This document shows, piece by piece, positions 23,922 to 43,869 of a stretch of 64,000 nucleotides of DNA. This DNA is from Frankiaceae bacterium (GTDB lineage: Bacteria; Actinomycetota; Actinomycetes; BP-191), in NCBI GenBank assembly GCA_035556555.1, contig DATMES010000001.1:62001-126000 (forward strand). The letters run 5' to 3'. Each line of letters opens with the position of its first letter. Within the stretch, counting starts at the first letter, position 1. The notes under the pieces are model-generated. The model was given only the letters and a program-made list of their open reading frames with translations, was not told the origin of the DNA and ran no database searches. The translations under genes were made by a program, and so were the position numbers.

Positions 23922-25982
23922 ATGACACCCGCCGCGACCGACGCGCACGCCCACCCGGCCGAGCACGCCGACCACGACTCCGCCGCGCCGAGCCACGAGG
24001 CCCACGACGCGCACGCCGGGCACGGCGGGGCGGCGGCGTTCGCCCGCCGCTTCTGGTGGAGCCTGGCCCTCACGCTCCCGGTCGTCGCGACCAGTCACAT
24101 GGTCATGGACTGGCTGGGCTACGACCTGTCGTTCCCCGGCATGGACTGGGTCGGGCCGGTGTTCGGCAGCGTCGTGTACGTCTGGGGCGGGTGGCCGTTC
24201 CTCACCGGCGGCGTCGCGGAGCTGCGCGCCCGCCGCCCCGGCATGATGCTGCTCGTCTCGCTGGCGATCACCGTGGCGTACGCCGCCTCCCTCGCGAACA
24301 CCGCCGGGGCGTTCGCCATGGAGTTCTGGTGGGAGCTGACGGCGCTCGTCACGATCATGCTGCTCGGCCACTGGCAGGAGACGAAGGCGCTCGGCCAGTC
24401 GCGCGACGCGCTCGGCGCGCTCGCCGCGCTGCTGCCCGACGAGGCCGAGCGGGTCGGCCACCACGGCACGGAGACCGTACGGCTCGACCAGCTCGCGCCC
24501 GGCGACGTCGTCCTCGTCCGCGCCGGGGCACGCGTGCCGGCGGACGGCGAGGTCGTCGCCGGGGCCGCCGAGGTGGACGAGTCGATGATCACCGGCGAGT
24601 CGCGGCCGGTGACCAAGCACACCGGCGACCGCGTCGTCGCGGGCACCGTCTCGACCGACTCCGCCATCCGCGTGCGGGTCGGCGCCGTCGGCAGGGACAC
24701 CGCGCTCGCCGGCATCCAGCGGCTCGTCGCCGAGGCGCAGGCGTCCGGCTCCCGCGCGCAGGCGCTGGCGGACAGGGCGGCGGCGGTGCTCGTCTACGTC
24801 GCGCTGGCCGCGGCGGTCGTGACGTTCGTCGCGTGGTCGGTCGCCGGCGACCCCAGCCAGGCCGTGCTGCTCACCGTCGGCGTCCTCGTCATCAGCTGCC
24901 CGCACGCGCTCGGCCTGGCGATCCCGCTCGTCGTCTCGCTGTCGTCCGCGACGGCCGCGCGCAACGGCATCCTCGTCAAGGACCGGCTCGCGCTGGAGCG
25001 GATGCGTACCGTCGACACCGTGCTGTTCGACAAGACCGGCACGCTGACGAAGGGCGAGCACGCCGTGACCGGCGTCTCCCCCGCCACCGGACTCGCCGAG
25101 GCCGACGTCCTGCGGCTCGCGGGCGCGGTGGAGGCCGACTCGGAGCACCCGCTGGCCCGCGCCATCGTCCGCGCCGCCGGTGACGTACCCGCCGCGCGCG
25201 GCTTCCGGTCGATCCCCGGCCGCGGCGTCGAGGCCACGGTGGACGGCACGGCGTACGCCGTCGGCGGCCCCGCCTTGCTCCGCGAGCGCTCCCTCGCCGA
25301 GCCGCCCGAGGTCGCGGCGACCGCGGACGGGTGGCGGGCGCGTGGCGCGGCGGTGCTGTACCTCGTCCGCGACGGCGCGGTCATCGGCGCGCTCGCACTG
25401 GAGGACGAGGTACGTCCCGAGGCCCGCGAGGCCGTCGACCGGCTGCACGCGCTGGGCCGCCGCGTCGTGATGATCACCGGCGACGCGCGGCAGGTCGCCG
25501 AGGCAGTCGGCAAGGCACTCGGCGTCGACGAGGTGCTGGCCGAGGTGCTGCCGGAGCAGAAGGACGCCACCGTCGCGGCGCTGCAGGCCCGCGGGCTGAC
25601 GGTCGCGATGGTCGGCGACGGCGTCAACGACGCCCCCGCGCTCGCCCGCGCGGACGTCGGCCTCGCGATCGGCGCCGGCACCGACGTCGCCGTCGAGTCG
25701 GCCGGCGTCGTGCTCGCGTCGTCCGACCCGCGCGCCGTCGTCTCCGTGATCCGCCTCTCGACGGCCGGGTACCGCAAGATGGTGCAGAACCTCGTCTGGG
25801 CGGCGGGCTACAACGTCGTCGCGATCCCGCTGGCGGCGGGCGCGCTGGCCTGGGCAGGGTTCACGTTGCCACCCGCGGTGGGCGCGGTGCTGATGAGCGT
25901 GTCCACGATCGTCGTGGCCGCCAACGCGCAGCTGCTCCGCCGCCTCGACCTCCGCCCCGACACCTCAGGGAGCCAGCAGTGA
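23922..25982 (+). CDS. copB: CPH-type copper-exporting P1B ATPase (CopB-like)
   Basis: A 686-residue P-type ATPase. The first 36 residues are His-rich (HAHPAEHADHD, HEAHDAHAGHGG), replacing the Cys-x-x-Cys domains of CopA. It has eight transmembrane helices, the actuator motif TGES (224-227), the ion-site motif CPH (C326-H328, ISCPHALGLAIP), the phosphorylation motif DKTGTLT (D370) and GDGVNDAP. CPH plus a His-rich N-terminus defines the P1B-3/CopB class, linked to copper or silver export. ATG 23922 follows ggaggtacgc. A CsoR-like site precedes it and a cupredoxin lipoprotein gene overlaps its stop by four bases. Confidence 0.93.
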   Translation: MTPAATDAHAHPAEHADHDSAAPSHEAHDAHAGHGGAAAFARRFWWSLALTLPVVATSHMVMDWLGYDLSFPGMDWVGPVFGSVVYVWGGWPFLTGGVAELRARRPGMMLLVSLAITVAYAASLANTAGAFAMEFWWELTALVTIMLLGHWQETKALGQSRDALGALAALLPDEAERVGHHGTETVRLDQLAPGDVVLVRAGARVPADGEVVAGAAEVDESMITGESRPVTKHTGDRVVAGTVSTDSAIRVRVGAVGRDTALAGIQRLVAEAQASGSRAQALADRAAAVLVYVALAAAVVTFVAWSVAGDPSQAVLLTVGVLVISCPHALGLAIPLVVSLSSATAARNGILVKDRLALERMRTVDTVLFDKTGTLTKGEHAVTGVSPATGLAEADVLRLAGAVEADSEHPLARAIVRAAGDVPAARGFRSIPGRGVEATVDGTAYAVGGPALLRERSLAEPPEVAATADGWRARGAAVLYLVRDGAVIGALALEDEVRPEAREAVDRLHALGRRVVMITGDARQVAEAVGKALGVDEVLAEVLPEQKDATVAALQARGLTVAMVGDGVNDAPALARADVGLAIGAGTDVAVESAGVVLASSDPRAVVSVIRLSTAGYRKMVQNLVWAAGYNVVAIPLAAGALAWAGFTLPPAVGAVLMSVSTIVVAANAQLLRRLDLRPDTSGSQQ

Positions 25983-26386
25983 GACGCCTCGCCCTCGCCC
26001 TTGCCGTCCTCGCCGTGACGGCGTGCTCCGACGGCGGCGAGCCCCAGGCCGCGCGCACGGTCGCCGTGACGATGAAGAACGTCGCGTTCTCCCCCGCGAC
26101 GCTGTCCGTCGCGAAGGGCGAGACGGTGACGTTCGAGTTCACGAACGAGGACTCCGTACGCCACGACGCGTTCGTCGGCGACGCCGCCGCGCAGGCCGAC
26201 CACGAGAAGGACATGCGCTCCGGCGACGGGCACGGCGGACACGGCGGCGACGACGCTGTCACGGTCGAGCCGGGCAAGACGGCGACGCTGACGCACACGT
26301 TCGACGAGGCGGGGACGGTCGAGATCGGCTGTCACGAGCCCGGCCACTACGGCGGCGGCATGAAGATCGTCGTCACCGTCACCTGA
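25979..26386 (+). CDS. Cupredoxin-domain lipoprotein
   Basis: A 135-residue protein starting in a GTGA overlap with copB. The signal ends in a lipobox, VTAC (C16), so it is probably a lipoprotein outside the membrane. The mature part is a plastocyanin/azurin-like cupredoxin: MKNVAFSPATLSVAKGETVTF, then DSVRHDAF (first His ligand) and EIGCHEPGHYGGGM (Cys, His and Met ligands). A His/Asp-rich insert (DHEKDMRSGDGHGGHGG) may bind extra metal. Its coupling to CopB suggests it takes up or buffers exported copper. Confidence 0.88.
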   Translation: MRRLALALAVLAVTACSDGGEPQAARTVAVTMKNVAFSPATLSVAKGETVTFEFTNEDSVRHDAFVGDAAAQADHEKDMRSGDGHGGHGGDDAVTVEPGKTATLTHTFDEAGTVEIGCHEPGHYGGGMKIVVTVT

Positions 26387-26400
26387 CCGGCGTGTCGGAC

Positions 26401-26431
26401 TTGCGCCGGTACGCGAGGCCGGGGCTAGAGT
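26401..26431 (+). promoter_or_regulatory. Possible promoter of the cobalamin riboswitch transcript
   Basis: TTGCGC at 26401-26406 and TAGAGT at 26426-26431 could serve as -35 and -10 with a longish 19-base spacer. Initiation would then fall a little before the aptamer at 26454. Assigned mainly by position; mismatches and spacing leave it tentative. Confidence 0.35.
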
Positions 26432-26453
26432 CCGCTCCCACAACCGAACATCG

Positions 26454-26550
26454 GCACGTACCGCAGGGGAAGCCGGTCCAAGTCCGGCGCTGACCCGCAA
26501 CCGTAGGCCGCTCTCGCGAGCGGCGAGCCGGGATACCTGCGTCGCGTGCG
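26454..26550 (+). promoter_or_regulatory. Cobalamin (AdoCbl) riboswitch aptamer
   Basis: The core shows the conserved B12-box elements in order: gggaagccggt near 26467, aagtccggcgctgacccgca, accgta, and after a variable hairpin (ccgctctcgcgagcgg) the gagccgggatacctgc segment at 26525-26540. The outer P1 stem is formed by gcacg/cgcagg near 26454-26467 and cctgcg/cgtgc near 26536-26550. Aptamers of this kind bind coenzyme B12 and repress downstream genes when B12 is plentiful. It precedes a secreted two-gene unit rather than the usual transport or biosynthesis genes. Confidence 0.93.
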
Positions 26551-26581
26551 TTGGCTCCCACGAAACACCGTCGTGGACTGC

Positions 26582-26634
26582 GGGCAGGAGCCGGGGTCGG
26601 ACGACCCTCACCTGCCCTCCGCACTTGCGGAGGG
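26582..26634 (+). terminator. Riboswitch expression platform: terminator with competing stem
   Basis: CCCTCCGC at 26615-26622 pairs with GCGGAGGG at 26627-26634 around ACTT, a compact terminator-like hairpin 43 bases before the ATG of the first gene. GGGCAGG at 26582-26588 is complementary to CCTGCCC at 26611-26617, which overlaps the terminator's left arm. The two stems are mutually exclusive, as expected for an antiterminator/terminator switch. The downstream bases (cttcgtcg) are only weakly T-rich. Confidence 0.65.
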
Positions 26635-26677
26635 CTTCGTCGTCTCCCGGTGCTGTGCGCGTCCGGGAAGGCTCCTC

Positions 26678-27745
26678 ATGCGCCGTACGCTCCTCGCCGT
26701 CCTGCTCGCGACCGCCCTGGCGGCGCCCGCCCACGCGGCCCCGCCCACCCGGGCGCGCTGGGCCGCTTCGTGGCTCGCCGGCCGCGTCACGCCCGCCGGC
26801 TACGTCACCGCTCTCGACGGCAAGCCGGACCTCGCGACGAGCGTCGTCATCGGCCTCGCGCTCGCCGCCGCCGGCACCGCGCCCAAGACGCTGGATGCGA
26901 TCGCGAGGTACGCCGCCGCGCACGCCGACGAGTACGCGACCGCCAACGGCACCGACCGGCCCGGCGCGCTCGGCCGCCTCGCGATGCTGGCGAAGGCGAG
27001 CGGGCGCGACCCGAACGCGTTCGGCGGCACGGAGCCTCGCCACCGGCTCGTCGACCGCATCCTCGCTACCCGCACGACGCTGGGGCCGAGCGCGGGGCTG
27101 CTGGCCGACCCCGTCTACAACGGCGTGTTCAGCCACTCGCTCGGCCTGCTCGGCGTCGCGGCCGCGCGTTCCCTCACCGACGAGCAGCGCGCCGGGCGGG
27201 ACGCCGCGCTCGACTACCTCGTCGCGCAGCAGTGCGCCGACGGCGGCTGGCAGAACAACCCCCGCGTCGTCGTCGCGGGCCTCGCGCTGACCCAGTGCGG
27301 CACCGGCCAGAACGGCCCCGACACCAACGTCGCGTCGTTCGCCGCGCAGGCGATCGCGGCGCACGGGCGGACCGCCACGCGGGACCCGCTGGCCTGGTGG
27401 GATGCCGCGCAGAACGCCGCCGGCGGCTGGGGCTACCTCCCCGGCGGCGCCACCGACGCCGACTCCACCGCGCTCGCGATCCAGGCGCTGGTCGCGTCCG
27501 GCGCGAGCCCGACGGACAAGCGCTTCACCGGCAAGGCCACGGCGTACGCCGCCCTCCTCGCGCTGCAGCTCGGCTGCGGCAGCGCGAAGGCCGAGCGCGG
27601 CGCGTTCGCCTACATGAAGCCGGCGTCCGGCCCGCCGCGGCCGAACGTCTACGCCACCGCCGAGGCGGTCCCCGCCGTGGCGCGGCTCGCCTTCCCCCTC
27701 CACCGTCCCGTCGCGACCGTCGCGCGGGCGTCCGTCCCCTGCTGA
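26678..27745 (+). CDS. Secreted squalene-cyclase-like alpha/alpha-barrel protein (transcobalamin alpha-domain-like)
   Basis: A 355-residue protein with a signal peptide (MRRTLLAVLLATALAAPAHA|A). The mature protein has repeated prenyltransferase/squalene-oxidase-type helices: CADGGWQNNP, NVASFAAQAIAA, NAAGGWGYLPGG and DADSTALAIQALVAS, the GGWGY...DxxSTAxAxQAL repeat. This fold is also the alpha-domain of intrinsic factor, haptocorrin and transcobalamin. Catalytic acids of terpene cyclases are not evident. A cobalamin riboswitch precedes it, and a DUF4430-like protein, the counterpart of the transcobalamin beta-domain, follows 11 bases later. I infer an extracellular B12-binding subunit. ATG 26678 follows gggaagg. 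Confidence 0.75.
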   Translation: MRRTLLAVLLATALAAPAHAAPPTRARWAASWLAGRVTPAGYVTALDGKPDLATSVVIGLALAAAGTAPKTLDAIARYAAAHADEYATANGTDRPGALGRLAMLAKASGRDPNAFGGTEPRHRLVDRILATRTTLGPSAGLLADPVYNGVFSHSLGLLGVAAARSLTDEQRAGRDAALDYLVAQQCADGGWQNNPRVVVAGLALTQCGTGQNGPDTNVASFAAQAIAAHGRTATRDPLAWWDAAQNAAGGWGYLPGGATDADSTALAIQALVASGASPTDKRFTGKATAYAALLALQLGCGSAKAERGAFAYMKPASGPPRPNVYATAEAVPAVARLAFPLHRPVATVARASVPC

Positions 27746-27756
27746 AGGAGCACACC

Positions 27757-28182
27757 GTGAAGATCCGCACGCTCGCCCTCGCCGCCGCCGTCGCGGCCGC
27801 CGTCGCCACGCCCGCGCACGCCGCCGACGTGACCGTCTCGCTCGCGCTCTCCGCCGGCCGTTACGCGCCCACCGGCGCTGCCTGCGCGCTGTCCGTCCCC
27901 GCCGGCGCCGACGGCGTCGCGGTGCTCGACGCGGCCGTCGCGAAGGGCTGCCTGGTGTCGTACGACACCGTGACGTACCCGGGCTTCGGGACGTTCGTGA
28001 CCTGCCTGAACGAGGTCTGCGGCCACGCCGGCACCGGCACCCTCGGCACCTACTGGAACATGTACGAGAACGGCGCCTCCACCTGGTACGGCGTGGACGG
28101 CTTCACCGCCGGCGCGGGCGACGAGCTCGGCTTCGCGTACCAGGCGTTCTGCTTCGAGGTGGTCTGCCCGCCCGTGGGCTGA
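27757..28182 (+). CDS. Secreted DUF4430-like protein (transcobalamin beta-domain-like)
   Basis: A 141-residue protein starting at GTG with aaggag seven bases upstream. A signal peptide (MKIRTLALAAAVAAAVATPA then HAAD) precedes about 118 mature residues. The pattern GTYWNMYENG...WYGVDGFTAGAGDELGFAY matches the DUF4430 core (sYW.yy.nG......g...y.l..GD.i.f.Y), the domain that caps cobalamin in intrinsic-factor-type proteins. Five cysteines (GAACAL, KGCLV, VTCLNEVCG, CFEVVC) include likely disulfides. It is the second and last gene of the riboswitch unit. Together with its neighbour it would reconstitute the two-domain vitamin B12 carrier from separate chains. Confidence 0.75.
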   Translation: MKIRTLALAAAVAAAVATPAHAADVTVSLALSAGRYAPTGAACALSVPAGADGVAVLDAAVAKGCLVSYDTVTYPGFGTFVTCLNEVCGHAGTGTLGTYWNMYENGASTWYGVDGFTAGAGDELGFAYQAFCFEVVCPPVG

Positions 28183-28230: not shown

Positions 28231-28956
28231 ATGACCACCGCCGAGCCGTCGGCCGACGTCACGGTCGAGCCGGTCGACCCCACGACGCTCCTCCTGCTGC
28301 TCGACGAGCGGGAGAGCGTTCAGGATGCCCTCGACCGGCTCGTGAAGTCGTGCCGTTCGGCGCTGCCCGTCTGCGACGACGCGAGCGTCACGCTGGTCCG
28401 CGACGACGGGCCGCGCACCGCCGCGGCGACGTCGGAGCGGGCGTTCCAGATCGACCAGTGGGAGTACGAGCACATGCTCGGCCCCTGCATCGACGCGCTG
28501 CGCGACGGCGAGGAGCACTACGTCGCGACCCCGGCCGACACGGCGACGTACGGCGACTTCGGCACCGTCATCGCGGAGGTCGGGATCTCGAGCGTGCTCG
28601 GGATCCCGCTCTCCGCCGGTGGCGAGACCGTGGGCGCACTCAACGTGTACGCCGGCGTGGAGCGGGCGTTCGACGACGACGCGAGCCGCGAGCTCGCGCG
28701 CTACGTCGCGCTCCAGGCGGCGACGACGCTGCACAACGTCCGCATCTACGACGCCACCCGCACGCTCGCGCAGCAGCTCGAGCAGGCCATGGCGTCGCGA
28801 GCCACCATCGAGCAGGCCAAGGGCGTCCTCGCCGCGCAGGCTGGCGTCTCCCCCGACGACGCGTTCACGCTGCTGCGCAACGCCTCCCAGCGCGAGAACG
28901 TCAAGCTGCGCGAGATCGCCGAACGCATCGTCGCGAGCGTGGCGCGGGGCCAGTAG
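28231..28956 (+). CDS. GAF-ANTAR RNA-binding antiterminator
   Basis: A 241-residue cytoplasmic regulator. Residues about 25-170 form a GAF sensor (SVLGIPLSAGGETVGALNVY near the end), and the last ~60 residues an ANTAR domain: LEQAMASRATIEQAKGVLAA...DDAFTLLRNASQRENVKLRE. ANTAR domains bind paired RNA hexaloop hairpins and prevent termination. I chose ATG 28231 over GTG 28225 because agagg then lies at normal SD distance. No target hairpins were recognised nearby. Confidence 0.9.
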   Translation: MTTAEPSADVTVEPVDPTTLLLLLDERESVQDALDRLVKSCRSALPVCDDASVTLVRDDGPRTAAATSERAFQIDQWEYEHMLGPCIDALRDGEEHYVATPADTATYGDFGTVIAEVGISSVLGIPLSAGGETVGALNVYAGVERAFDDDASRELARYVALQAATTLHNVRIYDATRTLAQQLEQAMASRATIEQAKGVLAAQAGVSPDDAFTLLRNASQRENVKLREIAERIVASVARGQ

Positions 28957-29752: not shown

Positions 29753-30493
29753 TTACGGCGCCGGCGGGGGCTCCTGCGACGCGGCGTCCTGGGTCACCGG
29801 CGCGGCCTCGCGGACCGGCATCAGCTCGGCGAGCCGCCCGGCCAGCACGCGCTTGAACTTCCTGCGCGGCCGCGTCCTGTCGAGCACCGCGACCTCCAGC
29901 GAGTCCGGCTCGAAGTCACGGGCCTCCTGCCCGCCCAGCGCGCGTACCGCGACGTCCATCGCGTCCTTGAGCGACAGGCCCTCGCTGTGGTGCTCCTTGA
30001 GGTACGCCGTCAGCTCCTCCGCCTTGCCGCCCATCGCGACGTAGCCGTGCTCGTCGGCGACCGAGCCGTCGTACGTGAGCCGGTACATCTGGTCGCCGGC
30101 CGGCGTGTCGGCCACTTCGGCGACGACGATCTCGACCTCGTACGGCTTCGCCTCCTGCGTGAAGATCGTGCCGAGCGTCTGCGCGTACGCGTTGGCGAGG
30201 GCGCGGCCCGTGACGTCGGCGCGGTCGTACGCGTAGCCGCGCAGGTCGGCGAGGCGGACGCCGGCGACGCGGAGGTTCTCGAACTCGTTGTACTTGCCGA
30301 CCGCGGCGAACGCGATGCGGTCGTAGATCTCGCTGACCTTGTGCAGCGCCGTGGACGGGTTCTCCGCGACGAACAGGATGCCGTCGGCGTACGAGAGCAC
30401 GAGCACGCTGCGCCCGCGCGCGATGCCCTTGCGGGCGTACTCGGACTTGTCCCGCATGAACTGCTCGGGCGAGACGTAGAACGGGGTGGTCAT
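29753..30493 (-). CDS. prcA: Proteasome alpha subunit PrcA
   Basis: A 246-residue 20S proteasome alpha subunit, forming the outer gating rings. The start [20 protein letters not shown] is the actinobacterial gate sequence, followed by [20 protein letters not shown]. The C-terminus is extended and Pro/Ala-rich ([19 protein letters not shown]). It follows prcB by 6 bases and is the last gene of the pup-HNH-prcB-prcA unit. pafA, which lies near prcA in many actinobacteria, is not in this window. Confidence 0.97.
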
Positions 30494-30499
30494 CGGGGC

Positions 30500-31318
30500 T
30501 CAGCCTCCGGGGTTCTGGTGGCGCTCGGCAACGATGGCCTCGACGACCTCGCCGATCTCGGGGTCGGGGACGCGGCGGAAGCCGTCGCCCGTGACGACGG
30601 CGACCACCGGGTAGATCTTGCGGATGAGGTCGGGGCCGCCGGTGCCGGCGTCCTCGTCGGCGGCGTCGTACAGCGCGTCGACCGCGATGCGCACGGCCTC
30701 GGCGTCGGTGATGCCCTCGCGGTACTTCTTCTTGAGGGCGCCGCGCGCCGGCCCGCTGCCGGAGCCGACCGCGAAGTACGAGTGCTCCTCGTACTTCCCG
30801 CCCGTCACGTCGTAGCTGAAGATCCGGCCGAACTGCCCGTCGACGTCGTAACCCGCGAACAGCGGCACCACGGCGAGGCCCTGCATGGCGAGGGGAAGGT
30901 TGTTGCGGATCAGCGTGGAGAGACGGTTGGCCTTGCCCTCCAGCGACAGCGTGGAGCCCTCGAGCTTCTCGTAGTGCTCGAGCTCGACCTGGAACAGCCG
31001 CACCATCTCGATCGCCATGCCGGCCGTGCCGGCGATGCCGACGCAGGAGTACTCGTCGGCCTGGAACACCTTCTCGATGTCACGCTGCGCGATCTGCAGG
31101 CCCATCGTGGCGCGGCGGTCACCGGCCATGATGACGCCGGTGGCGCTCGTGACGGCGACGATCGTCGTGGCGTGCGGCACCTCGGTCACCGTCCCTGGCA
31201 GTACGCGGCGGCTCGGCAGCAGCTCCGGCGCCTGACCGGCCAGGAACTCCGTGAACGAGGAGATCCCCGGCGTCGTGAACGCGGCCGGCAGCCGCCCCCC
31301 GCCAAGCAGGTCGGTCAC
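30500..31318 (-). CDS. prcB: Proteasome beta subunit PrcB
   Basis: A 272-residue catalytic subunit made with a propeptide of about 50 residues (through [11 protein letters not shown]). Autocleavage would expose the N-terminal nucleophile Thr in [20 protein letters not shown]. Lys33-equivalent and Asp17-equivalent residues lie in the GDRRAT context, and the typical [14 protein letters not shown] segment is present. Its GTG start overlaps the stop of the HNH gene upstream by four bases, so the HNH gene is spliced into this operon in a translation-coupled way. Confidence 0.97.
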
Positions 31319-32019
31319 GAAGCCCTCCGGGAGATGAGGCGCAGGCGCGCGGCCACCCGTTCGACGGTGTCGGGGGTGGGTCGGGTCAGGTAGCGGTGTG
31401 CGAGGAGCAGGCGCTCGGGGTCGTCGCTGAAGTTGCCGAGGCCGACGTTGCAGGTGAAGCAGAGGATGCCGCGGACCTCACCGGTCTCGTGGTCGTGATC
31501 CACGTGCTCGGCGTCCTTGACCTTGCAGATAGCGCATTTCCCACCCTGCGCCTCGACCATCGCGGCGACGTCATCGTGGGTCAGGCCGTAACGGGCCTTC
31601 AGGTGAAAATTGCGCGTGCTACCGTGGTTGAGCTCGACATTCTCGCGAACGATCGCGTTGTGGCACGGCAGGCAGTAGCCACCGAGCTCACGATTCTTCG
31701 TCCGATTGATGACAAACTCTTCGAGTCGCTTGGTTTCGCCGCACTCCGGGCAGCGCTTCTCCACGGCGTGCGCGTGCAGCGTTCGCTTCGGCCGACGTCG
31801 CTCGATCCGCTCTCCCCGAGCCCGTCTGGCCTTCGACTCCGCGTTGCGTCGCGTCGTGCATGGCTTGCAGTAGCAGGTCTTTCCATCGCTCGCGCGGCGG
31901 TCCGTAAAGAAGTCAGCAACCGCCTTGAAGCGCTCGCACTCTGGGCACCACTTCATTCCAGGAATGCTTGGCAATATCAGCAATAACTCCTCCTTAGAAT
32001 GCAAGGGGTGAATACTCAC
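31315..32019 (-). CDS. Endonuclease VII-like HNH protein between pup and prcB
   Basis: A protein of up to 234 residues with two Cys4-type zinc knuckles in the N-terminal half (WCPECERF...CYCKPC and RCPECGETK...YCLPC). The C-terminal nuclease motif is [20 protein letters not shown] then [20 protein letters not shown], the recombination-endonuclease VII/HNH core. The GTG at 32019 overlaps the pup stop by four bases; an in-frame TTG (about residue 12) sits just after aaggaggag and may be the true start. The 5' end uses A/T-rich codons unlike its neighbours, suggesting acquisition. It may be a free-standing homing-type endonuclease or a domesticated operon member. Confidence 0.85.
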
Positions 32020-32228
32020 TCTCCGCCCTTCTGGACGAACGAGCGGACAAAGTCCTCGGCATTCTCTTCCAAGACGTCGTCAATCTCGTCCAACAGGGAA
32101 TCGACGTCGTCGGTCAATTTCTCGTGGCGTTCCTGGACGTCGTCGGAGGTCGTCGCCTCGACCTCGTCGACCTCGTCCGACTTCCGCGTGGCGCGCTGCT
32201 GACCGCCGCCGCTGTCCTTCGCTGCCAT
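32016..32228 (-). CDS. pup: Prokaryotic ubiquitin-like protein Pup
   Basis: A 70-residue, mostly disordered acidic protein. The central coiled-coil-forming segment SDDVQERHEKLTDDVDSLLD and the C-terminus [12 protein letters not shown] are diagnostic. The encoded last residue is Glu (GGE), not Gln as in Mycobacterium, so Pup should be ligatable by PafA without deamidation. It is attached to lysines of proteins to be degraded by ARC and the 20S core. It heads the unit continuing into the HNH gene, prcB and prcA; about 196 bases without a gene separate it from the RHS immunity gene and must hold its promoter. Confidence 0.97.
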   Translation of the reverse strand: MAAKDSGGGQQRATRKSDEVDEVEATTSDDVQERHEKLTDDVDSLLDEIDDVLEENAEDFVRSFVQKGGE

Positions 32229-32424: not shown

Positions 32425-32904
32425 TCAGCGCACGGTGACGGTGAACACCAACCGGTCGAACGCAGGATCCGCGCCGCTGTCGTTGCACCGGTATTCGATC
32501 GTGCCGTCAGGGAGGTCCGTACGGAGCATGCCGGACGTGTACCCCTGGCTGTCCCAGGCCGCACCACCGGTCCCACGCCGATCCCACACGTTGTACAGCC
32601 GCAGGAGCCCGTCCTCGGTGGCGAGGACGGCAAGTTCCGCTGAACGTCGATCCGGACTCGTCCAGATGACGAACTGGGGGCGCTGGTCGCCGTCCAGGGA
32701 GAGCATCCCTTCGACCGCGATCCACACGCCTTGCGGCCACGGCGACGACTCGGAGACGAACTCGATGTGAACTACCGCACCCGGACTTACCTCCAGCACC
32801 TCGAAGAGGATGACGTCCTGGCCGGTCGACTCGGTGAGGTGCCGGTTGAACATCCGTTTCGATGGCAAGCGCATCCGCGGGCGCCGCTCATCGCGTCCAG
32901 CCAT
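32425..32904 (-). CDS. Candidate immunity protein for the RHS-HNH toxin
   Basis: A 159-residue soluble protein with no recognised family. ATG 32904 has gggag at ideal distance and lies 17 bases inside the end of the RHS gene, so the two are translationally linked. Content is mixed alpha/beta with many acidic residues (VLEVSPGAVVHIEFVSESS, SLDGDQRP, CNDSGADPAFD), as expected for a protein that blocks a basic nuclease. Assignment rests on position and size, the usual logic for polymorphic toxin immunity genes. It is the final gene of the inserted cassette before pup. Confidence 0.65.
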   Translation of the reverse strand: MAGRDERRPRMRLPSKRMFNRHLTESTGQDVILFEVLEVSPGAVVHIEFVSESSPWPQGVWIAVEGMLSLDGDQRPQFVIWTSPDRRSAELAVLATEDGLLRLYNVWDRRGTGGAAWDSQGYTSGMLRTDLPDGTIEYRCNDSGADPAFDRLVFTVTVR

Positions 32905-35900
32905 CTGGCACATCTCCCGTGTAGTGACGGTAGTCGTCCCAGTAATCATGCTCCCAGGGCCACAGCTCGCGCAGGTTCTCGATGTCGTGTCCGCCGCCAT
33001 CACGACGCGGGGTGATGTGGTCGAGCTCCTTCGAAACCGGAACCTCCTCGTGCAGTGGCGCCTTGCCCTTCCGCATCCGTTCGATGTTGGCCGGACCGAA
33101 CGTGTCGATCGCGCCGTCCTCCGCCGCCCGGTTCTTCCAGTGACGTCCACGGACGGTGGACCAGGCCGGTGCGTTGCCCGCGGCGGTGGGCGCGTCGATC
33201 GCGTCGCCGACCTGCCAGCGCTTGCCGCCGCTGCCCTTCCCGGCGCTGCCCTTCCCCGGACCACCAGCCTTGCCGGGGCCGCCCTTGCCCGGGCCTCCCC
33301 CGCCCTTCTTGCTGACCTTGTGGGCCCTGCGCGCGGTCTCGACAGGATCGCTCGCGACCTTGCCGCCGCCGCTGATGGCGTTCAGAGCGCGGCCGCCGTC
33401 ATTGGCGTCGTCCAGACCGTCGACGACCCTCGACGCCGTCGCGACGTCGCTCGCCTTGTCGAGGACGCGGACCGCCTTGACTCCGTTGGCCAGGCTGCCG
33501 GCGACCGGGATGGCCGCGCCGCAGCTGAGGGCGACGTCCACCAAGTCCCGGTCACTGGAGAACAGCCCGCCGACGCAGTCGTACAGGTCGACGAGGTCGC
33601 CGACGACCGGGATGAAGCCGATGCCCGCACGGAGCAGGCCACCGATGTTGCCGCCCGCGTTGAGGGGGAACCCGAACTGGAGCAGGCAGCCCTTCTCGAC
33701 GCGATCGGCTTGTTCCTCCGAGGTCGCGTACTTGCGCTCGACCTGGGTGCACATGTGCTCGAGCGCGCGGTCGGACAGCGGACCCGCGTCGTCGCCGCGA
33801 ACGTGGCCGGTGGGGTCGGTGTAGTTGACCGGGTCACCGTTGACGTACGAGTACCGGTTCGAGGTGAGCGGGTCGAAGCCGATGGTCGTGTCCGCCGCCG
33901 GGCCTCCGGTGTGGACGGCGTCCGGGGTCAGGAACGACGCCTTCGCCGGGTCGTACGTACGGCTGCCGAGCTGGTAGTTGCCCGTGGCGTTGTCGCGGCG
34001 GCCGCCGTTGAACCAGCGGTCGTTCGGCGTCGCCCCGTTCGCGCCGCAGGTCCACGTCGCCGTCGCGCCGGCGGCACCGACGGTCGCCCCGAACGCGTCG
34101 TACGCCGTCTGGCAGACGACCGCCGCGGTGCTCGATAGGACGGCGCCGATCGAACCCTGGCCGTTGTCGACGAGGTACTGCGTCGTGGACCCGTCTTCGA
34201 CGCCGACGGCCTGACCGGCGGCGTCGAGCGCGAAGTCGACGACCGAGGTGCCCTTCACCGTGCGGTCGGGGGCTGTGCCGAAGCCGACGTAGTGCAACGC
34301 CGTGGTGGTGCCACCGGAGACCTGCGACACCTGGCGGTCGAGCCCGTCGTACGCATAGGTCGACGTCTGGGCCGAGCAACCGGTCACGCCGGTGCGCGGC
34401 GTCACCTGCTTCAGCCGGTCGAGGCCGTCGTACTGGTACTGGGTGCACCGGTCGCCCGACACACCACCGAACGGCTCGTAGTCGTACGTGGTGGTCGTCC
34501 CGCCGGCCGTCTCCGACTTGATGGAGTTGTCGGCGCGGTAGGCGAAGGTCGACTTGTTCGGCCCGGTCGAGCCGACGAAGCCGTTACGGTCGCAGTCCTC
34601 GCCGTAACACGTGCGGTTGCCGTTGTGGTCCCAGTTCACGTACTTCGTGGCACCGGAGCCGTACGTGAACGACTCGAGGCGGCCGCCGGGCGTGTAGGTG
34701 TAGCTGGCGGTCACGTTGGCGACGCTGCTGCCGCCGTCCGTCCCGCTGAAGGCGCGCGACAGCACGTTGTACGACGCGTCGTACGTGTAGTCCCACCGGG
34801 CGAGATCGGTCGTCGCCGAGGCTGACTGCTTCACCACGCGCGACGTCAGCGTGTCGTCGTTCCGCCACGTGAACGTGCTCTGAGCGCCGTTCGGCGCCGT
34901 CTCGGAGAGCGGCCGCCCAGCGATGTCGTACTGGCGGCTGAACTTGCCCGACCCGAGGTCGCCCGTCTGTCCGGCGACCGCCGCGGCCTCCGACCAGAGC
35001 TCGACGGCGAACCCGCCGTCGTCGTATCGGGTCGCCGTCGTACCCGGGTCCCCCACCGCGTCGGCGGTCCGCGACAGGTCGTGCGCGACCTCCCGGCCGG
35101 CACCGTCGTACAGGTACGACGTACGACGACTGCGGGAGTCCACCGTGCGGGGCAGTCCGTCGAGGTAGTACGTCGCCGTGACGTCGGCCGTGCTGTTGTC
35201 CGACGCTGCCACCGAGGTGCGGTTGCCGGCGGCGTCGTACTTGGTCGTCACGACGGGCGTCCCGTTGCGGCCGGTCTGCGTCTTCAGCCGGTCGTTCTCG
35301 TAGTAGCCGAAACCGAGGGCGGACTCCGTCCCCGAGGTCGGCGTGAAGGCGTACGTCGTGGCGTCCACCGTGCCGGTGTCGACGGTGACCGCCGTCTTGC
35401 GGCCGCTCGCGTCGTACGTGTAGCGCTCGCGCCGCTGCGTTACGCCGTTCGAGCTCAGCGGCGTCAGCGTGGTGTCGAGCAGGTTGTCGTGCGTGTAGGT
35501 GCTGACTGTCGCGGTCCGCTGGCCAAGGGTGCCGTCGACGAACGGACTCGTCGGGGTGGCGGCCTCGTTCGCGCTCGGCGAGTAGATCGCCGTGACGTTC
35601 CCGGCACCGTCGTACTTGTACGTCGTGACGTCGGCGGTGTCGTAGCCGTACGTCGTCGGCGTCGGCCGCCCGTAGCGCGAGCTCGGCGTCTGGACGCTCT
35701 CCAGCCGGCCGTCGGAGTAGTACGTCTGCGTGGTCGTGCGTCCCGACGGGTCCGTGTAGGAGATCGGGTTCCCGTTGGCGTCGTAGCCGAACGCCTCGAG
35801 GTGCGTCGCCGGCGGAGTTCCTCCCGGGTTGCCGGCGGGCGCCGTGCGCGACGCGATCTGGCCGTCGCCGGAGTACGTCGTCGTCGTCAGGTCCAGTGGG

Positions 35901-38900
35901 ACGGAGGCCGACGGGTCGAACCTCGGACCGCCCTCGGCGACGACAGCGCCGGAGCCGTCGTAGTACCGCCGGGTGATCGCGCGGCGGCCGTTGCCGTTCG
36001 TGTCGGCCGGGGCCGGGGCGTCGATCGTCGCGACGAGACCATCGGGCGTGTAGGTGAAGTCGACGTACCTCGCCGCGTCGCCGGTCGTCGCCTTGGTGGT
36101 CGGTACGACGCCGTCGCTGCCGACACCAGCCGTCGGGAGCCACTGGGTGACGAGGCGGCCGGCGGCGTCGTACTGGAACGCTGTCGTGCAGACACGAAGC
36201 CCGCTGCTCGCGGGGCAGTCGTCGGTCCCCGTGATCGCGCCGCCGCCCGGCAACGTCAGCGCCGGCTCGGACGCCACCGCGCTGTCGCTGCGCGGCGTCG
36301 ACCGCCACGCGAGGCGACCGGCGTCGTCGTACTCCATCGACGTCGCGAACAGCGTCGTGGCATCGGTCGGCGCGTTGGGTGCGAACGCGCGCGGCTCGAT
36401 GATCTTGTCGATGTTGCCGGCGTCGTCGTACTCGTAGTCGGTGCGAACACTGCCACCGCCGTCAGCGGCCGACGGACCGTCGGGCGCGTCGACGATCGAC
36501 GTGACGCGGTGCGCGGCGTCGAAGGTCCACGTGGTGCTGCGGCTGGCGGTGACCGCCTCGCCCTCGGCTTCGCACTTGCCGTCGATCGGCCTCGAGCGCA
36601 GCGTGACGTTCCCTGCCGCGTCGTACTGCGTCACGACGTGGCTCCAGCTGGAGCCGGTCCCTCGCGGCGTCTCACGGCAGTAGGCCCGGTCGAGCGAGTC
36701 GTACCTCGTCGTGGCCTTGGGCCGGTCGGCCACCGGGGACGTGGCGTCGGTCTGGTTGCCGCTCACGTCGTACTCGAACGACGTCGTGTAGGTCTCAGCA
36801 GCACCGCCCGCGGACGGTGCGCGCCGCACGGTCGTCGAGAGCAGGTGGCCACCCGTGGAGTACGCGAGGTCGACGGCAAACGCACTGGACGTGGAGTCGC
36901 AGTCGGTCCAGCCGACCTCGACGCTCTCCGGGGCGCACTCGCGCGTCATGTTGCCGTCGAGGTCGTACCGGTACTGCGTGAACGCATCGACGACCCGCGG
37001 GTCGCGCGCCGTGAGCAGCCGGCCGACACCGTCGTACGTCCGGTGCCCGGTGAAGCCGCTGCCCGTCGTGTACGAGACCGGTCGGTCGACGCCGTCGTAT
37101 CCGATGGTCCCGCCGGGGGCGCACACGCGCTTGTCCGCGGGCATCCCGATCATCGCGCTCGTCGACGTGGTGCAGCCCGGCGCCGCGAACGTGGTGTCGT
37201 CGCGAAGCTCGTAGGTCGCCAGGGGCCGGTGCACCGCGTCGTAGACGTGGCTCGTGACACCGCCGCCGGGTGCCTCCTCCGTGACGAGGCGGCTGTAGTC
37301 GTCGTAGAAGAACTCGACCTCGGTGGAGGCGGTGGACGCGACCCCCGCCGACCGCGGATCGGTCCGTGTCTTCAGGTTGTCGGCCGCGTCGAACGTGTTG
37401 GTCGTCGTGCCACGACCAGCGGGCGTGATGGTGAGCGGGTTGCCGTTGTCGTCGACCGTCCGGGTCGAGGTGGTGCCGAGCTGGTCACGGTGGCTGACCG
37501 CGTAGCGCCATGGTGCGCTGAGGTTGGTCGCGCCGGTGACCGGCAGCTTCTCCCAGAGGTCCTCGGTGTAGTCGGAGCTCGCGGGCGATCCGGCGCTGCC
37601 GGGGTAGTCCGACTGCGGCTTGCCCGACTTCGCCGTCGCGACGCGGTCCCACGTCCTGGCGACGTTGCCCGCGGCGTCGTAGCCGAACGCCACGAACTTG
37701 TCCTTGGGGTCCGTGACGGAGCGCAGCCAGCCCGCGGCCGGGGTCGTTCCGGAGAGGTCCCTCGTCGTTCCGGTGAAGTAGGAGTAGCGGTAGGTGCGGT
37801 TACCGGGCCGGATCTCCTGCGTCCGCTGTCCGTAGACGTCGTACTGGTACTTCGTCGTGACCTTCGTGGCGCCGTTGTGCGGCGCCTCGACGGAGCAGAC
37901 GAGGCCGGTGTTCCGGCGCGGCGGGGACGAGGCGTCGTCGCAGAACGGGTCCTGGTCCTGTGTCGAGGTCGGTGCGTCGTGCGCGACGTTGGGTTGTTCC
38001 GTCGAGTCGTTGTCGACCGTGTAGGTCGTCAGGTACTTGCGCCAGTCGGTACTGGTGTCACCGTTCCCCCGGGGGGTGAGCGACTCGACGAGGTCGCTCA
38101 GGACGAAGATCGTCGACGAGTCGTAGCGCTCCTTGGCGTTGACCGCCGAGGCACCCGTGCAGACGGACTGCGCCGACGAGACCATCCCGGGCGACAGCTT
38201 CTCGTCCCAGCAGTACACGCCGTCGTGCCGGACGTACTGGGCTCGGTAGCCGCTCGAGTGCTCGATCCACTTCCCGGTGGCGACGCCGTAGTTGGTCCCT
38301 GCGCGGCGACGGGTGAGCCCGCCCTCCGGCGTGTAGGAGAACTCGGCGACCTCGTCGGGGCTGTACTCGGAGCCTTGAGTCGCGGCCGTCGCGGGGTTCA
38401 GCGCCTTGCGGGTACGGGTGCAGAGCACGTTCGGGCGAGTGTTCATCGTGAGGGACGTGCAGTAGCCCCACTGGAAGCTCGTGGAGCGCAGCGCGTCGAT
38501 GCCCGTCGTGGCGTTCGGGGTGCCCTCGTCGATCTGCCAGACGCTGCCGACGCTGTCGATCGACGAGTACCGGACACGCGTCGTGGAGCGGGTCGTCCCG
38601 TCGGCCTTCTTGTCGGAACGGTCGACCGAGACGTGCTGCACCTGCTCGTCGTACGCATAGTCGTACGTGGTCGCCTTGAGCCGGCGGTCGGTGACCGACG
38701 CGACCTGCGGCGGTCCGGCTGAGATCCCGTAGCCCGGGCTCGCCGTGGTGTAGGTGAGCGCGGTCGCGTGGTCGAGGGCGTCGGTCACCTCGCAGAGACG
38801 GCCCGCGGTCCCGCAGTCGACGGCCGTCCCGCCGTCAGCACGCGCGACGGTCGAGTACCGGTAGTCGATCTTGCTGCCGTCGGGGTTGACGACCCTCGTC

Positions 38901-41900
38901 AGGTACGTCGATGCGTTCGCCGCGTGGAGGGTCTGGCAGTACTTCGTCTCCCGCTTCGCGGCATCGGTCAGGGTCATCACGGCCGTCGCCGAGGCACCGC
39001 AGTCATGCGTCTGTCCGGGGACTGGCACGATCGGGACTGCCGTGGACAGCGTCATCTTCCGCGCCGACATGCCAGGACGTGACTCGGTCACGGTGAGCCC
39101 GGTCACGGCGCTGTGGGAGTAGCCCAGCCCGTTGCCCGCGCCGTCGACCATGCTGACGAGCCGCCCGGTGGCGTCGAACTCGCTCCGGAACCGGTCGGGC
39201 CGGAGGGTCGCGTAGCCGACCACCGTGCCCGCGGCGATGGCGCTCGCGCTCGCGCACGGCGTCGTGGACGTCCCACCGTTGACCGCGATGTACCGCCACA
39301 TGGACAGGTGGACCCCGGCAGGAGCCAGGTACGCCTGGTCCACGCAGATGTCGGTCGACCCGCTCGGAATGGCGATCGCGACCGGGGCAAGCATCCGGAG
39401 CTGGTCGGGGCCGCTCCACTCGAACGAGGTGGTGCTCTTCACGCGCAGCGTGTGCTTCACATGGCGCGGGCTGAACGAGTGCCTGGTGCCGTCGCGGTCG
39501 ATCAGCGTGATGGAGCCGTGCACGACGGGCGACTCGTGTTCGGGGACGAGGACCCCCGACCCGACGACGCTGCTGGCGCCGGCCATGGCCGACACCTCGC
39601 CGAGGTTGAGGATCCAGCCCTTGCCGATCTCCCCGGGCAGCGTGGTGACGCCGACGTCCTGCGAGTTGTACGTACGGCGCGCCACGAGGGAGAGGTCGCC
39701 GCGGACGCGCATCGGGGTCGAGTCCAGCTGCTGGACGACCGCGTTGCCGTTCGCGATGTTGACCGCGATCCGGCCGCCGGGGCCGGTCGCGTGCTCGTGG
39801 TACGACCACCACGACTCCATCCCGAGCCCTCCGTCGCACACGGTGTACGTGAGGTCGCTCGGCACCGTGGTGAAGAAGTCCGCGCCGTCGGCGTACGTGG
39901 CGTGCACGTCAGCCGTCGAGCCGTGGAGGGTCGACTCGATGCAGCCACGCGTAGACAGCACGCGCAGCGGAGCGAGCAGCGTCTTGGTGCCGCCGGCTGG
40001 GATGGGGACGTCGCCGAAGGCGAACTCGTCGCTGAACGTCCCGGAGCGCCCGCACGTCACCGGCGCCACGCACGGAACGTCGTCGACGAGCCCGTTGAGG
40101 CCGGGGGTCGCGGTACCCGGCACCGGGAAGGACGTGCTGAAGTCGATGGCGTCGTCGGGGTCGCGGTTGGTCACCGTGAGCTCGACGGTGAGCGTGGAGC
40201 CGGCGGCGTACCCGAACGTCGGCTGGGCCTCGACGATCTTCCAGGTGACCTCCGGCGCTTCCCGCGGCTCGTCGAAGTACCCGACGACGTCGACGAGGAC
40301 GTCGGTGGACAGGTTGACGGTGCGGACGCGTATCCGGCCGAGACTGCTCGGTTTGACGAAGACGAGGTTGTGCCGGGTCTGCGCGGCGATCGTGCGGACC
40401 GACGTCACGCCGGACGGCTGGGCCGCGTCCGCGTCGTAGACGATGATCGAGCCGGAGGCGGAGCTGTTGAGCGTGTGCACGACAAGCGCGACGACGCCGA
40501 CGTCGCTCGACGGCACGCCCCCCTTGCCGAGCACCGTGAAGTCACGCGTCGTGTTGCTGGGGATCGCGCCGGTCGTGCCGCCGACGACGTTGAGGCCGCT
40601 TCGGGTGTCGCCGATCCGGGCGCCGTTCAGCGGGTGGTACGGCGCGAACCCCGTCGACGAGCCGAGCGGCGTGAAGTAGCCGACGACGTCGACGAGGAAG
40701 TCCAGCGTCCCCGCGGAGTTGTGCACGACGATCTCGCCGCTCGTACCCACCTTCGACACGACGAGCTGGCTCATCGCCGACGACGTCTCGATGCTGGTCG
40801 GCGTCGTCGGCCGGCTGGTGCCCTTCGCGTAGACCGTGAGCGCCGTCTTCTCCGTCGGCACGGTGACGATGCTGACGACCACCGACGACATCTCCGACGC
40901 CGCCGGCAGATCACCCTCGTTGGCGACCATCACATCGCGCGTTCCGCCCGCCCCGACACTGCCGCCGCCGTTGGTCCAGCGCGTGTCGAGGATGCGGCTC
41001 GGCTCGACCAGGCGAAGCACGCCACCGGACTCGATCGAGTCGTTCAGCGTGGAGAACCAGCCCTGGACGTCGATCTGCACGTCCATCGCCACGGAACTGC
41101 TGTTGTAGACGGTGATCTGACCGCTGGTGCCGACCTTGACGATGACCGTGTTGCTGATGGACTGGTTCGTCAGGAAGTTGACGGAGGACACCGCCGGGCG
41201 TGTCACGCCGGCCGGGTACAGCGTCAGCGAGCCGGAGCCCCCCGGGGTGACCGGGTGGACGTCGACCATGACGGCGGACACGTAGTTCTGCGGGATCCCG
41301 GCGCGCCCGGTGACGTCGAAGCTGAGAGATCCCAGGCTCGGGACCTTCTGCGCGCTGCTGAGCCCAGTGCCGGTGACGGTGTTGAGGGTCCGCGCCGGCG
41401 TGACCGGGGTGAAGCGCCCACCCGAGGTGGTGTAGATGTTGCCGCTCGAGTAGTCGGGGTCGAGCACGATCGGATAGCGGTGCCTGGTGGCCCAGCGGCG
41501 GTCGACGGAGCTGCGGACGACGTACCCGCCGTCCTCCTGCACCACCGTCTGCGACGCGCTCCTGGGGTCCTTGACGTGACCGTGGGCGCCCCGCCGCTCC
41601 TCGTACGCGTAGGCGGGGGTGACCGACAGCCGCTGCTGCTCGCCCGAGCCCAGGTCGTGGCCGTCGTGGGTTTCGGTGAGCCCGGTCAGGGCGCCGTCGG
41701 GATCGGAGACGAAGATCTCGACGGCGTGCAGCGCGCGCGCCGAGCGCAGCACGAGCCGCTGCGTGACCCCGGCCGGGCCGACGTCGAACCTGAGGTCCGT
41801 GTCGGGCGCGACCTCGTAGAAGACGACGCCGTTCCCGTCGATGACCGGGTTGCCGATCTTCAGGCGGCTCTTGGCCTGGAGAACGGCGCGTCCCTCCGGC

Positions 41901-42244: not shown

Positions 42245-42369
42245 GAGAAACGGGGCTCCCCACGTCCAGGAAAAGGCGGTAGGAGCAGCCAACCTGGCGG
42301 GCGTTATGTCCTCAATGGCACAGAAGGGCCATATTGCGGCTAGTCCGTAACTTGCCGGTATGTCCGGAC

Positions 42370-43869
42370 TTACCGCCCGCCGGAGATCCTGTCGACGAGC
42401 TCGGCCGCGGTGTCGCAGACGTCGAGGAGCTCGCCGACGTGCGCCTTCGTGCCGCGCAACGGCTCCATGGTCGGCACGCGCTGCAACGAGTCGCGCCCCA
42501 CGTCGAAGATCACCGAGTCCCACGACGCGGCGGCGACCTCGCCTGCGTACTTCTCCAGGCACCGCCCCCGGAAGTACGCCCTGGTGTCCTCGGGCGGCGC
42601 CGTCATCGCGCGCGTCACGACGTCCTCGGTGACGAGCAGCTCGACGGAGCCGCGCGCGGCGAGGCGGTTGTAGAGGCCCTTGTCGGGGCGTACGTCGTGG
42701 TACTGCAGGTCGACGAGCTGCAGCTTGTGGCTCGACCAGTCGAGCGACTCGCGCTCGCGGTAGCCGTCGAGGATCGCCAGCTTGGCGACCCAGTCGACCT
42801 CGCGGGAGCACGTACGCGGGTCGTCCTCGAGCCGCGTCAGCACGCTCTCCCAGCGCCCCAGCACGTCGCGGGTCTGCTCGTCGGCGTCGTCGCCGAGCGT
42901 CGACTCGACGAACTTCCGCGCCAGCTCGAGGTACTCCATCTGCAGCTGTACGGCCGTGAGCTTGCGTCCGTCCCGCAGCGTCACGAGGTGCTTCAACGAC
43001 GCGTCGTGCGACACGGCCCGCAACGACGACACCGGCTGCTCGACGGACAGGTCGCGGTCTATGAACCCCGCCTCGATCATCGCGAGGACCAGCGAGGTGG
43101 TGCCCGCCTTGAGGTACGTCGCGACCTCGTTGAGGTTGGCGTCACCGATGATGACGTGCAGCCGCCGGTACTTCTCCGGGTCGGCGTGCGGCTCGTCGCG
43201 GGTGTTGATGATCGGCCGCTTCAACGTCGTCTCGAGGCCGACCTCGACCTCGAAGAAGTCCGCGCGCTGGCTGATCTGGAAGCCGTTCCCCCTGCCGTCC
43301 TGGCCCGTCCCCACGCGCCCCGCGCCGGCGAACACCTGCCGCGACACGAAGAACGGCGTCAGGTGCCGCACGATCTCCGCGAACGGCGTCGAGCGGGCCA
43401 TGAGGTAGTTCTCGTGGCAGCCGTACGAGACGCCCTTGTTGTCGGTGTTGTTCTTGTAGAGCTGCACGGGCGCGGTGCCGGGGACGGCGAGCGCGCGGCG
43501 CGCGGCCTCGGCCATGACCCGCTCCCCCGCCTTGTCCCAGAGCACGCAGTCGCGCGGCGTCGTGACCTCGGGGGTGGAGTACTCGGGGTGCGCGTGGTCG
43601 ACGTAGAGGCGGGCGCCGTTGGTGAGGATGACGTTGGCGAGGCCGAGCTCGTCGTCGGACGGCGGCTCGGACACCTCGTGCGCCAGGTCGAACCCGCGCG
43701 CGTCGCGCAGCGGGCTCTCCTCCTCGAAGTCCCAGCGGGTACGCCGGTCGCGCTGCGGGGCGTACGCGTTGACGACGAGCGACGACGACACCATCGCGTT
43801 GAAGCCAGGCTGCCCGGGGACCGAGATGCCGTACTCGGTCTCCGTGCCCATCACCCGTCGCACGGTCAT
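42370..43869 (-). CDS. dop: Depupylase/deamidase of Pup, Dop
   Basis: A 499-residue carboxylate-amine-ligase-fold enzyme that removes Pup from proteins (and deamidates Pup-Gln where needed). The start [15 protein letters not shown] is the Dop form; PafA has IFGIETEFGV instead. Further family marks are [40 protein letters not shown] and [16 protein letters not shown] 43869 is chosen for the VMGTETEYG alignment. In most relatives dop is followed directly by pup; here a ~9.8-kb RHS cassette separates them. 125 bases with no gene lie between its stop and the RHS start and likely carry the RHS promoter. Confidence 0.95.

Follow-up and report, generated by a model that had tools for sequence, protein, structure and literature searches.

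A cobalamin riboswitch-controlled actinobacterial gene pair that probably encodes a secreted, two-chain cobalamin-binding protein

Introduction

Transcobalamin, intrinsic factor and haptocorrin (PF01122 and PF14478), the B12 carriers of animals, are exported proteins in which an alpha/alpha toroid and a beta-grasp domain are joined in one chain. When the alpha and beta domains of human transcobalamin are expressed separately they assemble on addition of cobalamin (PMC5599065), which makes a naturally split version of the architecture mechanistically reasonable. Burroughs et al. 2007 (PMC1796856) defined the SLBB superfamily and reported bacterial transcobalamin-type domains fused to toroids on either side, with export signals and Gram-positive anchors, in hosts that usually lack B12 synthesis and within operons containing CbiO and CbiQ; a role in B12 scavenging was predicted. 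These proteins are fused or multidomain, and come mainly from low-GC Gram-positives, planctomycetes and euryarchaea.

Two further systems are relevant. The accessible part of the report on ECF-CbrT (PMC5997447) describes ECF-type cobalamin uptake in which the S component captures cobalamin, and that of a study of acI actinobacteria describes a riboswitch-controlled ECF module for cobalamin (PMC5301498); a transcobalamin-like pair is described in neither part. In Streptomyces, SCO2321 and SCO2322 (NF053823 and NF040672) head an ECF operon, at several loci behind a cobalamin riboswitch, and we found no paper in the literature on the function of their products.

Here we describe two adjacent genes, A and B, in a 64 kb stretch (hereafter, the window) of an actinobacterial genome of 3.98 Mb in 71 contigs. 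Like the animal carriers, the pair combines an exported alpha/alpha toroid with an exported beta-grasp domain; unlike them, it consists of two chains with no linker, is controlled by a riboswitch, contains a toroid related at the level of the fold only, and has no known receptor. With the proteins of Burroughs et al. it shares both folds, export, ECF-type neighbours among its relatives and the predicted role, but its chains are split, it belongs to Actinobacteria and no transporter lies beside the window copy. SCO2321 and SCO2322 are homologous to A and B and stand in the same gene order, but are membrane anchored, and the sequence of each is a circular permutation of its window counterpart.

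Results

Riboswitch leader and gene neighbourhood

The only Rfam match in the window is a cobalamin riboswitch aptamer (RF00174) at 26439-26558 on the forward strand, which spans the full model in cmscan (1-189 of 189) and scores 44.9 bits against a gathering score of 31.5 (E 5e-8). It is accompanied by a conserved expression-platform stem at 26553-26592 (+), GGCTCC and GGAGCC around ACCGTCGTGGA, which is nearly invariant in an alignment of five leaders, namely those of the window pair, of the pair in a second genome of the genus and of three ECF operons of the genus. Between the aptamer and the start codon, at 26614-26635 (+), lies a terminator-like hairpin with a 9 bp stem and a poor U tail, GCCCTCCGCACTTGCGGAGGGC. 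Its position is kept in the ECF-operon leaders of the genus, across which two of its pairs show compensatory change (U-A to C-G, and C-G to U-A). The near-invariant stem and the co-located hairpin with its compensatory changes indicate that the pair and the ECF operon share one regulatory module. Cobalamin-dependent termination would take place at this hairpin; in Streptomyces griseus, premature termination has been reported at a predicted cobalamin riboswitch (PMC8914203).

Downstream of B is a gene for a GAF-ANTAR regulator (28231-28956), and the 5' neighbours of the riboswitch encode a metal P-type ATPase and a cupredoxin; hence the riboswitch appears to serve A and B only. A preliminary description of this DNA had claimed a cobalamin riboswitch with an apparent terminator/antiterminator platform over just two genes, and all three elements are upheld by the full-length match, the conserved terminator-like hairpin and the genes on either side.

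Several other features of the window were noted in passing. The metal P-type ATPase, followed by a small His-rich cupredoxin (23922-26386, +; Cupredoxin_1 at 4.6e-10, CopI-like), is likely to form a copper-handling pair. From the list of open reading frames, proteasome alpha and beta subunits, an HNH-type protein and Pup are encoded at 29753-32228 (-), and a very large RHS/YD-repeat surface protein at 32888-42811 (-), with an open reading frame of 3307 residues, an HNH-like nuclease motif at its end and a polymorphic-toxin-like architecture. A PADLOC search for defence systems gave no match.

The proteins encoded by A and B

Gene A (26678-27745, +; ATG start) encodes 355 residues and gene B (27757-28182, +; GTG start) encodes 141; they are separate genes, 11 bases apart, in place of the single chain of the transcobalamin and intrinsic factor family. 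Each has a Shine-Dalgarno-like site and a predicted Sec-type N-terminus ending in AHAA, read from the sequence as MRRTLLAVLLATALAAPAHAA in A (26678-26740, +), where the N-terminal pLDDT is also low, and as VKIRTLALAAAVAAAVATPAHAA in B (27757-27825, +). Both proteins stop shortly past the folded domain with no anchor, and A ends at residue 355 with no transmembrane segment to correspond to the membrane anchor of the SCO2321 family.

Among Pfam models A matches only those for SQHop and Prenyltrans (SQHop_cyclase_N at E 1.1e-4, under the cut-off) and not PF01122 (Cobalamin_bind), which a human fragment used for comparison matches at E 4.9e-67. NCBIfam relates A to the SCO2321 family (NF053823) at E 1.6e-40, though with 139 bits against a curated cut-off of 300 and with its halves circularly permuted in order. 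The AlphaFold2 model of A (pLDDT 89, pTM 0.89) has thirteen helices in a single toroid; its closest structures in the PDB by Foldseek are squalene-hopene cyclases, drimenyl diphosphate synthase and prenyltransferase beta subunits, and the alpha domain of intrinsic factor or transcobalamin is absent among the 50 best structural matches listed. By these tests, the kinship of A with the alpha domain of intrinsic factor extends no further than the toroid fold.

Type II cyclases carry DXDD-T at a position where the A family has DADSTA or DxNST (D-x-[DN]-S-T); the DXDD motif is absent from A and from ten aligned homologues. A does have two QW motifs. It can thus be described as a toroid of cyclase and prenyltransferase type from which the cyclase acid motif is missing, and its assignment as a terpene cyclase was rejected on that ground. 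The preliminary description would have been contradicted by a structure search that grouped A with true terpene cyclases of intact active site; the nearest structures are indeed squalene-hopene cyclases and prenyltransferases, but the DXDD motif is missing.

B matches DUF4430 at E 0.0057 with 17.5 bits, under the Pfam cut-off of 23.8; on the same scale the human beta domain scores 25.9 bits and a fused protein from Oscillospiraceae (see below) 46.9. Its AlphaFold2 model was built from six sequences (pLDDT 74, pTM 0.68), and the five models disagree (pLDDT from 74 to 49). The best Foldseek match in the PDB is 5no0, the beta domain of human transcobalamin (E 4.4e-6, TMt 0.77), and the 19 best matches, at E of 1e-3 or less, comprise 17 of transcobalamin, haptocorrin or intrinsic factor plus two chains of 3u7z, a Ruminococcus gnavus protein; beyond these 19, no match is better than E 0.2. 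As modelled, then, B has the fold of the transcobalamin and intrinsic factor beta domain, and is structurally closest to that of transcobalamin.

Direct comparison of sequences was less informative. When A and B were compared with transcobalamin by hhalign, the probability was about 0.2%, with B placed in the right register; pairwise alignment of B with transcobalamin scored no better than shuffles; and sequence searches of the PDB with B and with the fused protein returned nothing useful. Since these comparisons are not significant, it is Pfam DUF4430, the structures and the gene context that support the link to transcobalamin; the assignments of A and B, weak from sequence, are made firm by NCBIfam (for A), by relatives and by predicted structures. 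An exported alpha/alpha barrel and an exported DUF4430-like domain had been described previously at this locus; the former is confirmed by a confident single-toroid model behind a Sec-type N-terminus, and the latter by structure search, with DUF4430 itself under the cut-off. The accompanying claim, that these are the two folds of intrinsic factor and transcobalamin, stands for B by structure search, and for A extends to the fold only.

An ECF operon with paralogues of A and B

The genome contains exactly two RF00174 matches, that of the window and another, below the gathering score, on contig C24. There, the riboswitch is followed by A2, B2, EcfT (CbiQ), EcfAA, an S component and CobT, in that order. 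A2 (428 residues; SCO2321 family at 3.5e-53) has a C-terminal transmembrane anchor, and B2 (274 residues; SCO2322 family at 1.4e-15) a proline-rich linker and a transmembrane anchor; EcfA is a fused pair, the S component matches PF12822 at 3.8e-10 and CobT matches DBI_PRT at 1.7e-36. Genes for EcfT, EcfA and S are absent at the window locus and present beside A2 and B2 on C24, so that the uptake system which had been expected elsewhere in the genome, for want of an adjacent transporter, is located. On the strength of the riboswitch and the adjacent cobT gene, we infer the substrate of the C24 S component. MetH is encoded in the genome (1439.5 bits), CobJ/CbiH is not found over the cut-off, and the one BtuC-type candidate is a single 31-bit FecCD match, which together fit a cobalamin-dependent organism that imports cobalamin; the riboswitch-controlled ECF operon is its only clear cobalamin importer.

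Distribution and conservation

Of the 247 genomes sampled from the class, 61 encode a homologue of A. At 31 of 40 named loci taken from a survey of 84,980 species genomes, EcfT neighbours A and is accompanied by EcfA and, in most cases, S; several of the others stop at a contig edge. Across Actinobacteria, homologues of A and B together head an ECF operon at most loci sampled, and a cobalamin-type riboswitch exceeds the Rfam threshold at 14 of the 25 loci scanned (RF00174, AdoCbl or AdoCbl-II). In a metagenome-assembled genome (MAG) of Oscillospiraceae, a single open reading frame comprises a toroid, transmembrane segments and DUF4430 (3.8e-12; SQHop_C 4e-5) and directly precedes EcfT, EcfAA and S; through this fusion both folds are linked to a single function. 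The riboswitch-linked ECF-operon paralogues, in the same genome and across Actinobacteria, and this Firmicute fusion all lend support to the B12-scavenging role first suggested for the pair.

The soluble type of pair seen in the window is rare. Close relatives of B were found in two of the 247 genomes of the class, both from the same genus, and the pair is present in two of the three genomes of that genus. In the second of these the pair and its riboswitch are kept at a protein identity of 71% for A and 69% for B, in different gene surroundings. The ratio dN/dS between the two genomes is 0.58 for A and 0.51 for B, which indicates some selection keeping both genes and no tight constraint.

Two observations concern individual loci. 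The aptamer class varies upstream of the same operon genes, in two genomes an AdoCbl-II (RF01689) or AdoCbl (RF01482) aptamer taking the place of RF00174 at L043:9533-9622 and L048:6235-6379. At L056:8899-12083, in the Frankiaceae MAG Chersky.28_11, an A homologue is directly followed by a cobT-like and an apparent cobS-like gene; B and the ECF genes were not found at this locus, and a gcvT-like gene is nearby, as it is near the ECF locus of the window's genome.

Circular permutation of both chains

Against a profile of window-type A, the Streptomyces-type protein shows two blocks swapped, with 136-350 first and about 20-130 thereafter, the second block matching at E values down to 1e-14. In Streptomyces-type B, the half containing YWSxW..GWRF precedes that containing VVDYGT..CAIDGYP, whereas in window-type B it follows, and transcobalamin, by its equivalent segments, has the window-type order. 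One permuted B aligned to B2 with a score of 121 (z 11.4) as it stands, and of 180.5 (z 18.6) once its halves were rejoined. By half-domain profiles, both chains are permuted at 33 loci, neither at 11, and they are discordant at none; since L037 and L052 are the same locus, these are counts of loci fetched and not of independent events. The permuted loci include L042-L048 and L060-L087, which are Streptomyces-type ECF operons. The tree of A, with its deep forks not resolved, is compatible with one origin, so the concordance of both chains may be plain shared ancestry.

Discussion

Reasoning from sequence, we consider it likely that the two genes form a cassette, repressed by cobalamin, whose products make up an exported cobalamin-binding protein of two chains that supplies an ECF importer. 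Under cobalamin shortage the riboswitch would permit transcription through the hairpin at 26614-26635, and A, an alpha/alpha toroid corresponding to the transcobalamin alpha domain, and B, a beta-grasp SLBB protein corresponding to its beta domain, would be exported. The two would close on the corrinoid from opposite sides, the ligand holding the chains together as in the separately made halves of human transcobalamin, and so raise cobalamin capture outside the cell; the ligand would then enter through the C24 ECF operon, whose first two genes are membrane-anchored versions of A and B. We infer that A and B bind cobalamin, associate as a heterodimer, leave the cell without being retained at the wall and hand their ligand to the ECF transporter. 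On this view the pair in the window, with neither anchor nor transporter of its own, probably serves to catch cobalamin outside the cell as two secreted chains. A bolder and tentative extension, which we regard as possible but doubtful, is that the bacterium releases a ligand-assembled two-chain cobalamin carrier in the manner of a siderophore, to be recaptured by the anchored ECF paralogues, both chains having been permuted together within the family with their partnership kept.

Alternatively, A and B may stay at the surface, on the wall or on the anchored ECF paralogues, as extra ECF subunits that raise capacity and do not diffuse; this is a serious contender, if somewhat short of probable, as ECF-linked A and B proteins of the same genome carry C-terminal transmembrane or LPXTG-like anchors, have their leader in common with the pair and could serve as a docking site for a soluble copy, but the window proteins are anchor-less and end soon past the folded domain. 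The ligand could also differ, being cobinamide, another cobamide, a lower-ligand base or cobalt. Riboswitch control shows no more than a response to cobalamin, and CobT, which acts in lower-ligand activation, follows the ECF operon and directly follows A at L056; we nevertheless judge another ligand unlikely, given that the beta-domain fold and toroid clamp whole cobalamin in animals and that the cobalamin-riboswitch ECF context is general. That the pair is a decaying duplicate of the first two genes of the ECF operon, with no present function, would accord with the lack of the pair in the third genome of the genus and with dN/dS values of 0.5-0.6, and yet seems improbable when reading frames, signal peptides, ribosome-binding sites and riboswitch are all intact in two genomes at 71% and 69% identity and in different surroundings. 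Scarcely credible, finally, is the reading of A as an exported enzyme of terpene cyclase or prenyltransferase-like kind whose link to the riboswitch is incidental, for which the two QW motifs and the best sequence and structure matches to squalene-hopene cyclases could be cited, but to which the missing DXDD in A and its ten homologues, the single exported barrel and the regular adjacency of homologues to DUF4430-type and ECF genes are opposed.

The idea of scavenging by such proteins is already published for fused forms in other phyla. What look new are the split actinobacterial form, the soluble copy with no transporter and the joint permutation; we found no description in the literature of split, soluble or permuted forms, nor any mention of permutation in both chains together.

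With the reading of the locus as a secreted cobalamin-binding pair, the SCO2321/SCO2322-ECF operon, whose first two products have no functional name in NCBIfam, gains a testable mechanism, that of a two-chain, transcobalamin-like clamp feeding an ECF importer. For expression work the soluble pair would be a good place to start, having neither anchors nor long linkers. Soluble, anchored, fused and permuted split versions of the intrinsic-factor architecture would together provide models for how cobalamin is gripped, and they bear on the origin of the animal B12 carriers.
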